Shown here piece by piece: positions 58,284 to 58,640 of a stretch of DNA of 64,000 bases. The notes beneath the pieces are model-generated. The model did no database searches. It worked only from the letters and a program-made list of their open reading frames with translations, and was not told where the DNA came from. The stretch covers positions 24,446,272-24,510,271 of the forward strand of contig NC_026659.2 of assembly GCF_000004075.3 (NCBI RefSeq), written 5' to 3'. The DNA is from Cucumis sativus. Lineage: Eukaryota > Streptophyta > Magnoliopsida > Cucurbitales > Cucurbitaceae. How positions within the stretch are numbered: position 1 is the first letter of the stretch; each line of letters opens with the position of its first letter. Position numbers and translations under genes: made by a program.

Positions 58284-58640
58284 CCCGTACACGACTTCCT
58301 GCATGCGCGACACGTGTCCACACCCCTACGGTTGACTGGACTGTTGACTCGTTGTACGGAAGTCGTGTACGGTACACGACTTCCACCATACGCGGCAAAA
58401 TGTGCCAGCTGTACGGGAGTCATGTACCGGGTACACGACTCCAGTCAGAAAACGTGGGTCGGGTCCACGACTCCACTCGGATATCGTAAGCCCGGTCCAC
58501 GACACCATTTTGATTTGTAGGGTACACGACTCCAGTCAGAAAACGTGGGCCGAGTCCACGACTCCACTCGGATATCGTAAGCCCGGTCCACGACACCATT
58601 TTGATTTGTAGAAATCGTGTACCCCGTACACGACTTCAGT
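58284..58640. repeat. Palindrome-rich repeat block with a 91-bp tandem duplication
   Basis: A GC-rich block abutting the truncated mTERF copy. Three 27-bp inverted repeats share arms of the form GRAGTCGTGTAC / GTACACGACTYC: 58358-58384 (perfect 13-bp arms, 1-base centre), 58416-58442 and 58611-58637 (12-bp arms, one mismatch, 3-base centre). A half-copy (GTACACGACTTCC) begins at 58287. A 91-bp unit is tandemly duplicated at 58430-58520 and 58521-58611 with only two differences. The block opens short frames in several phases that translate to repeated VHDS/VHDF strings; these are by-products of the repeat. Class not recognised. Confidence 0.85.

Follow-up and report, generated by a model that had tools for sequence, protein, structure and literature searches.

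The terminal inverted repeats (TIRs) of Mutator elements hold binding sites and promoters, and tandem TIRs have been described as well, as related in passages of PMC3310237. FARE1 of Arabidopsis and MuTAnT of Medicago are foldback MULEs, of which FARE1 carries long palindromic repeats at both ends, according to the parts of PMC4486113 that deal with them. VANDAL elements of Arabidopsis have VANC anti-silencing proteins together with an element-specific short motif that is repeated in their non-coding regions (passages of PMC5735166), and arrays of the VANC motif are also a subject of PMC10398659. The plant mobile domain (PMD) is used by plants in silencing, as in MAIL1/MAIN. Passages of PMC5418596 describe fusions of PMD-C with the transposases of MULEs from grasses and Amborella, assign PMD a role in silencing, and raise anti-silencing as speculation. 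In cucumber itself, CsMULE is a 6994-bp insertion at the CsMYB60 locus with a 9-bp target-site duplication (TSD), a MURA-like gene and TIRs of 117 and 115 bp, as reported in passages of PMC6305189.

Here, we analysed a 64,000-nucleotide stretch of the cucumber genome (the window) that contains a palindrome-rich block next to a truncated mTERF gene. Our joint reading, in which we place high confidence, is that the block is the right end of a MULE family with a MURA-type transposase and a PMD gene, that the palindromes in its TIRs are likely dyad binding sites, and that the locus acquired its present form through the history set out below. The features of the locus, in window coordinates, are as follows.

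57897–58283, + strand: 5' remnant of mTERF copy A, cut at the MULE junction; matches the neighbouring gene and members of the mTERF cluster
58284–58713, + strand: truncated MULE copy, a right TIR with palindrome array, placed by its likeness to L009 and by the common terminus
58287–58298, + strand: the right of the two arms of palindrome R4, which lies farther from the right end than R1–R3; the left arm is absent
58358–58384, no strand: palindrome R3, perfect, with 13-bp arms and a 1-nt centre
58416–58442, no strand: palindrome R2, of the GGAG...CTCC type by family comparison
58429–58610, + strand: 91-bp tandem in two copies (98%)
58611–58637, no strand: palindrome R1, the nearest to the right end
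58638–58713, + strand: outer right TIR, AT-rich, ending ...ATTATTTTTAAAAAAAATCC, the terminus in other copies
58714–58722, + strand: 9-bp target site, right copy, CGCATTTCC; left copy absent
58723–58904, + strand: upstream sequence of intact mTERF gene B, native to the locus, aligned to L052
58905–60026, + strand: intact mTERF gene B, 373 aa (Pfam PF02536, E 4.5e-39)

The palindrome block is confirmed as real and beyond chance. As described in the initial annotation, which was made from the letters of the window, it contains three 27-bp palindromes (58358–58384, perfect, and 58416–58442 and 58611–58637, each with one arm mismatch) and a 91-bp unit in tandem (58429–58519 and 58520–58610, 98% identity), is GC-rich against AT-rich surroundings (GC 0.546, compared with 0.315 over the whole window) and begins where mTERF homology stops, with a 254-bp match between two mTERF copies ending at 58285. 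A half palindrome at the left edge of the block, 58287–58298, was absent from the earlier list, and the right edge, previously placed at 58640, moves outwards, as family sequence runs on to 58713. With at most one mismatch allowed, the arm GTACACGACT(T/C)C has 10 matches in the 64-kb window, all of them inside 58287–58637; for the same arm, printed as GTACACGACTYC, the count in shuffled sequences (n = 100) averages 0.14 and never exceeds 1. Folded as single-stranded DNA, the block yields z = −4.79, which is reached by 0 of 100 shuffles.

Arms of 12 to 13 bp and strong predicted folding, calculated as DNA, would suit palindromes that are transcribed as hairpins and give rise to small RNAs regulating or silencing the element, but the stems are short and we consider this reading improbable. 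A known RNA family is ruled out, with no Rfam match at gathering score in 57800–59000. The palindrome core had 0 matches in IMG/VR, as expected for a plant element.

A search of the cucumber genome (226.6 Mb in 88 contigs, seven of them 22–41 Mb long) with the block, proposed earlier as a check, returned many copies, with at least 40 scored places on 8 contigs among 60 first-look candidates, a lower bound; the family that they form belongs to the MULE class rather than to a new one. We examined 39 distinct copies, including that of the window, with L040 and L043 counted as one: L043 was dropped as a separate copy, its flanks and TSD being equal to those of L040 and the match extending along the whole stretch, through either a real duplication or an assembly double. 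When all copies were compared with one another, similarity extended well past the block and mostly stopped sharply at both ends, and many copies showed opposite-strand matches at their ends. The element begins on the left with GGATTTTTTTTAAAAATAATGTGTTTTG... and ends on the right with ...ATTATTTTTAAAAAAAATCC, 9-bp direct repeats flank these ends, and the TIRs of complete elements begin GGATTTTT.

Complete elements, 1018 to 7193 bp long, account for 20 of the 39 distinct copies; they are what remains of a list of 22 rows after removal of L043 and of L038, a spurious entry whose left end does not match the TIR. Their 9-bp TSDs are perfect in 18 cases and carry one mismatch in two (L017 and L020). 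The other 18 rows comprise the copy in the window, copies for which the stretch examined does not reach the left end, truncated copies, and copies with both ends in which a matching TSD was not found, of which there are at least two, L010 and L037. The TIRs are up to ~290 bp long in this family. In L023, left positions 1–302 align with right positions 1–287 at 89.5% of 219 sites (large gaps not counted), which sets palindromes L1, L2 and L3 opposite R1, R2 and R3, in register; in L015, left 1–293 and right 1–275 agree at 88.7% of 231 sites, and in L046 the alignment covers left 1–194 and right 1–156 only, at 81.4% of 145 sites (gaps not counted in either). A second TIR-like stretch (GACGGATTTTTT...AATAATGTGTTTTT) lies inside the left end of L023, ~364 bp from that end, and is also present in L009 and L046; in this it is similar to tandem TIRs known from other MULEs.

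The target duplication, the TIRs and the transposase identify the family as a MULE family. The earlier suggestion that the block might represent pieces of an unclassified dispersed family was therefore correct as to dispersal and not as to classification, given the MULE termini, the 9-bp TSDs and the MURA-type transposase; the block had seemed to fit no transposon class because only one element end survives there. Similarly, the statement that it has no terminal repeats and no coding sequence holds for the window fragment but fails for its family, which has TIRs, a transposase and a PMD open frame.

The dispersed copies also bear on a different origin of the block, as a satellite or as a local duplication private to the mTERF locus. 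Its 91-bp tandem and its location in a tandem mTERF cluster would fit such an origin, but each of the 7 large contigs carries copies, most of which have unrelated flanks and TSDs of their own, and the tandem consists of two copies only, the 91-bp insertion being private to the window copy and found in none of the other 38 copies examined; we give this explanation next to no credence. A satellite in the sense of long tandem arrays is ruled out by the dispersed complete elements. A Helitron is ruled out as well: Helitrons end in CTRR, and the present element terminates in ATCC and is flanked by TSDs.

The genes of this MULE family are best seen in L036, where a 629-aa open frame matches PF10551 (3.3e-20), PF03108 (1.4e-8) and PF04434 (4.2e-8); with DBD_Tnp_Mut, MULE and SWIM domains, it is a MURA-type transposase by domain content. 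A PMD open frame (E 1e-60) follows ~200 bp downstream on the same strand. The left end of L036 was not found within the stretch examined; L046 is a complete element of 7193 bp with a MULE hit and a PMD hit between its two ends. Pfam MULE matches lie within ~3 kb of at least seven copies, at these positions:

C1:18007487, near L027
C3:18368259, near L036
C1:13973521, near L026
C5:18053767, near L039
C1:11105415, near L045
C6:12087926, near L024
C5:19577827, near L046

PMD matches were also found in or beside L018, L019, L023, L025, L026, L027, L033, L034, L039, L045 and L047, and among the matches listed L018, L019, L023, L025, L033 and L034 have PMD without a nearby transposase. Both genes are oriented away from the right end, which puts the right palindrome array upstream of the transposase. 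The two genes appear to be under modest and similar constraint, with dN/dS values of 0.28–0.87 for PMD (10 pairs from 5 copies) and 0.41–0.63 for the transposase (3 pairs from 3 copies). Nine MULE transposase loci with an equal score of 77.6 bits have no listed perfect palindrome within 40 kb, among matches covering C1 to 20.95 Mb; judged by their score, they would belong to another family.

Within the TIRs, the palindromes occupy fixed positions, three on the left and four on the right. Scored with up to 6 substitutions in the 20 complete elements, the left slots at 129, 171 and 266 bp hold a palindrome in 18, 17 and 14 elements, respectively, and the right slots at ~84, 188, 247 and 368 bp in 17, 16, 19 and 16. 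The position of R1 is 83–85 bp from the right end in 17 of the 20 complete copies, that is, in all where it was found. A further palindrome, decayed and situated between R1 and R2, is common as well (19 rows), three weak internal palindrome matches were seen in complete elements, and R2 differs symmetrically from the other palindromes, in both arms (GGAG/CTCC).

A genome search for the 27-bp palindrome, the other check proposed at the outset, bore out its abundance, with 360 occurrences at up to 2 mismatches and 0 for a reversed-pattern control. Perfect palindromes number at least 50 among the matches listed, which cover C1 up to 20.95 Mb, and form 19 clusters there. Thirteen of these are family members by sequence (11 copies already in the set and two added later, L054 and L056, both left ends), two belong to a related subfamily, and four have a PMD match nearby only, within the cluster or 2 kb, the sequence comparison having covered the other 15. 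L053 and L055 match the outer right end at 80–84% and carry one palindrome only, placed at 90 bp from the terminus; from this similarity they appear to be ends of the related subfamily, and their one-palindrome form may represent the state before growth of the array. These one-palindrome right ends lie at 1144–1260 of L053 and 1022–1138 of L055.

We next consider sequence divergence, expressed as the per-site difference from the majority, in the right ends of 39 copies and the left ends of 26. On the right, divergence is 0.012 in the arms, 0.038 between palindromes and 0.151 in the 3-bp centres, with values of 0.057 in the 92 bp further inside and 0.044 in the AT-rich end; arms differ from the sequence between palindromes at p 1e-4 for non-CpG sites and p 0.05 for CpG sites. 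On the left, the corresponding values are 0.012 for arms, 0.017 between palindromes, 0.032 for the outer TIR and 0.130 for centres, and the arms of these 26 copies show no significant extra conservation over the intervening sequence at non-CpG sites (p 0.21), while they do differ from all non-palindromic sites (p 0.019, non-CpG). The arms are thus conserved, clearly on right ends and weakly on left ends, and the 3-bp centres are variable.

Conserved arms around a free centre are what a dyad-binding site is expected to show, and on this ground we read the palindromes as binding sites. They would be dyad-symmetric sites, possibly also promoter elements, for a DNA-binding protein encoded by the element, with the transposase as first candidate and the PMD protein as a less likely one. 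Such a binding role appears the likeliest function of the palindromes; gene conversion between palindromes could produce the same pattern of low arm divergence.

The palindrome array and the PMD gene might, further, form one anti-silencing system, in which the element has taken over PMD and the TIR palindromes would dock the PMD protein, or a complex of it with the transposase, opening the chromatin of the element. Retention of PMD in copies that lack a listed nearby transposase would fit this proposal, which would parallel VANC of VANDAL, although the protein is unrelated and the motif is a dyad; we nevertheless regard it as very unlikely.

Alternatively, the palindromes may have no binding role and be fragile cruciform or hairpin sequences that have stayed in the TIRs and drive deletion, duplication and inversion of their centres, and a recombination or slippage hotspot had indeed been proposed in the initial annotation. 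We compiled 41 indels and truncations of at least 8 bp from 39 copies, called against right-end references, and in 14 of the 41 events a breakpoint lay no more than 5 bp from the centre of a palindrome (5.5 expected, p 5e-4). The excess amounts to 12 of 36 distinct events when identical ones are counted once (4.8 expected, p 0.0014), to 10 of 32 distinct events without the window copy (p 0.007), and to 11 of 28 when insertions are excluded and a narrower null is used (5.4 expected, p 0.012), the last of these speaking less strongly for fragility; with a 3-bp limit, the effect in the same four sets is weak (p 0.04, 0.07, 0.11 and 0.23).

Also consistent with fragility, the truncation of the window copy and one end of its 91-bp duplication lie at palindrome centres, the block folds strongly as DNA (z −4.79), and centres have flipped between CC(C/T) and GGG types, with nearly intact arms, in 10 of 101 palindromes (slots L1, L2, L3, R1, R3 and R4). 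However, the same breakpoint procedure applied to left ends places 4 of 29 distinct events near centres, where 5.0 are expected, and the p values flatter the hotspot because the idea arose from the window junction, which was known before the test was devised. Fragility alone, moreover, leaves the fixed positions and the conserved arms unexplained, and we consider it a doubtful account of the palindromes. What stands of the hotspot proposal is the right-end excess at 5 bp; with none on left ends and a weak effect at 3 bp, a breakpoint hotspot at palindrome centres is possible.

Alongside palindromes that would serve as binding sites, our reading includes a history of the window locus. The window copy is, by sequence identity, a truncated member of the MULE family, of which the right TIR and the target site on that side remain, the left TIR, the left TSD and any coding sequence being absent. 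Its nearest relative among the copies examined is L009, which it matches at 98.2% of 327 aligned right-end sites and at 93% over query positions 1–253 (the L002/L009 place). Its left edge is uncertain by ~3 bp, the two sides sharing a C run, and its right edge is set by the terminus ...TAAAAAAAATCC: being common to other copies, this terminus fixes the edge to the base, whereas the BLAST edge against L052, at 58702 inside the A-rich terminus, alone fixes it to ~12 bp. L052 is an element-free mTERF paralogue (C5:5.04 Mb) that has AGTATTTCC where the window has CGCATTTCC, followed by a close match. The MULE ends 191 bp before the start codon of mTERF gene B. Parts of mTERF copy A match the neighbouring gene at 58789–58892 (81%) and 58936–59174 (87%), and further matches of copy A fall within a large mTERF cluster of this chromosome. 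This tandem cluster, at C5:24.27–24.78 Mb with 81–87% DNA identity, includes 58905–60026 and 62823–64000 of the window; a second, small mTERF group lies at C5:3.99–5.04 Mb.

The initial annotation had connected the block with the truncation of the gene by inference, and this link takes concrete form in a junction that lies within 4 bp of the R4 centre. A MULE would have inserted between two mTERF genes, upstream of mTERF gene B, and a single later deletion would have extended from within mTERF copy A to the R4 centre, removing the left part of the MULE and the 3' part, which is most, of copy A. We infer this order, insertion and then deletion, as the simplest; the MULE/mTERF junction may also be a misassembly. 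In the 91-bp duplication, the new junction at 58519/58520 brings the centre of R2 next to sequence that lies immediately to the left of R1.

Two further repeats precede the mTERF remnant. One of them, dispersed and 125 bp long, lies shortly before it at 57611–57735 and has at least 17 further places on all seven large contigs and C78 at 82–89% (40 of 171 candidates scored); the other, an AT-rich tandem repeat with units of ~30 and ~60 bp, occupies 57694–57858.

The block, unclassified before, is thereby assigned to a named kind of element, its right edge is fixed, and 360 palindromes of the cucumber genome can be approached through it. The family lends itself to examining whether the terminal repeats of MULEs can act by means of discrete palindromic sites, and, if binding by a protein dimer accounts for the conserved arms and free centres, the motif is open to direct testing in vitro. 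It also represents a MULE with a PMD gene in cucumber, where the passages of PMC5418596 name grasses and Amborella only. In a PMC subset of the literature, the arm GTACACGACTTC was not found, and at the level of titles and abstract openings the family is undescribed, the one match for Cucumis and plant mobile domain being unrelated; the family may be catalogued in Repbase.

Compared with known systems, the cucumber family shares with MuDR and plant MULEs the 9-bp TSD, long TIRs and a transposase with DBD_Tnp_Mut, MULE and SWIM domains, and differs from them in its ordered array of 27-bp palindromes in the TIRs and its PMD gene. It resembles foldback MULEs of the FARE1 kind, by description, in having palindromes at both ends, but unlike in FARE1 and MuTAnT these are short, discrete and separated, and the internal region is large. 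As in VANDAL, a short element-specific motif is repeated in non-coding sequence; the VANC21 motif, however, measures 9 bp, and in the main text of PMC5735166 the word 'palindrome' is absent. CsMULE, compared by description in passages of its report, is likewise a cucumber MULE of ~7 kb with a 9-bp TSD and a MURA-like gene, but its reported TIRs are 117 and 115 bp long, and palindromes and PMD go unmentioned in those passages of PMC6305189. With the PMD-MULEs of grasses and Amborella, as these appear in passages of their description, the family has in common a MULE that carries a plant mobile domain, which is a fusion there and a separate open frame, by genomic frames only, in L036. What is less ordinary here is the combination of a PMD gene with TIRs that contain palindromes in an ordered array.
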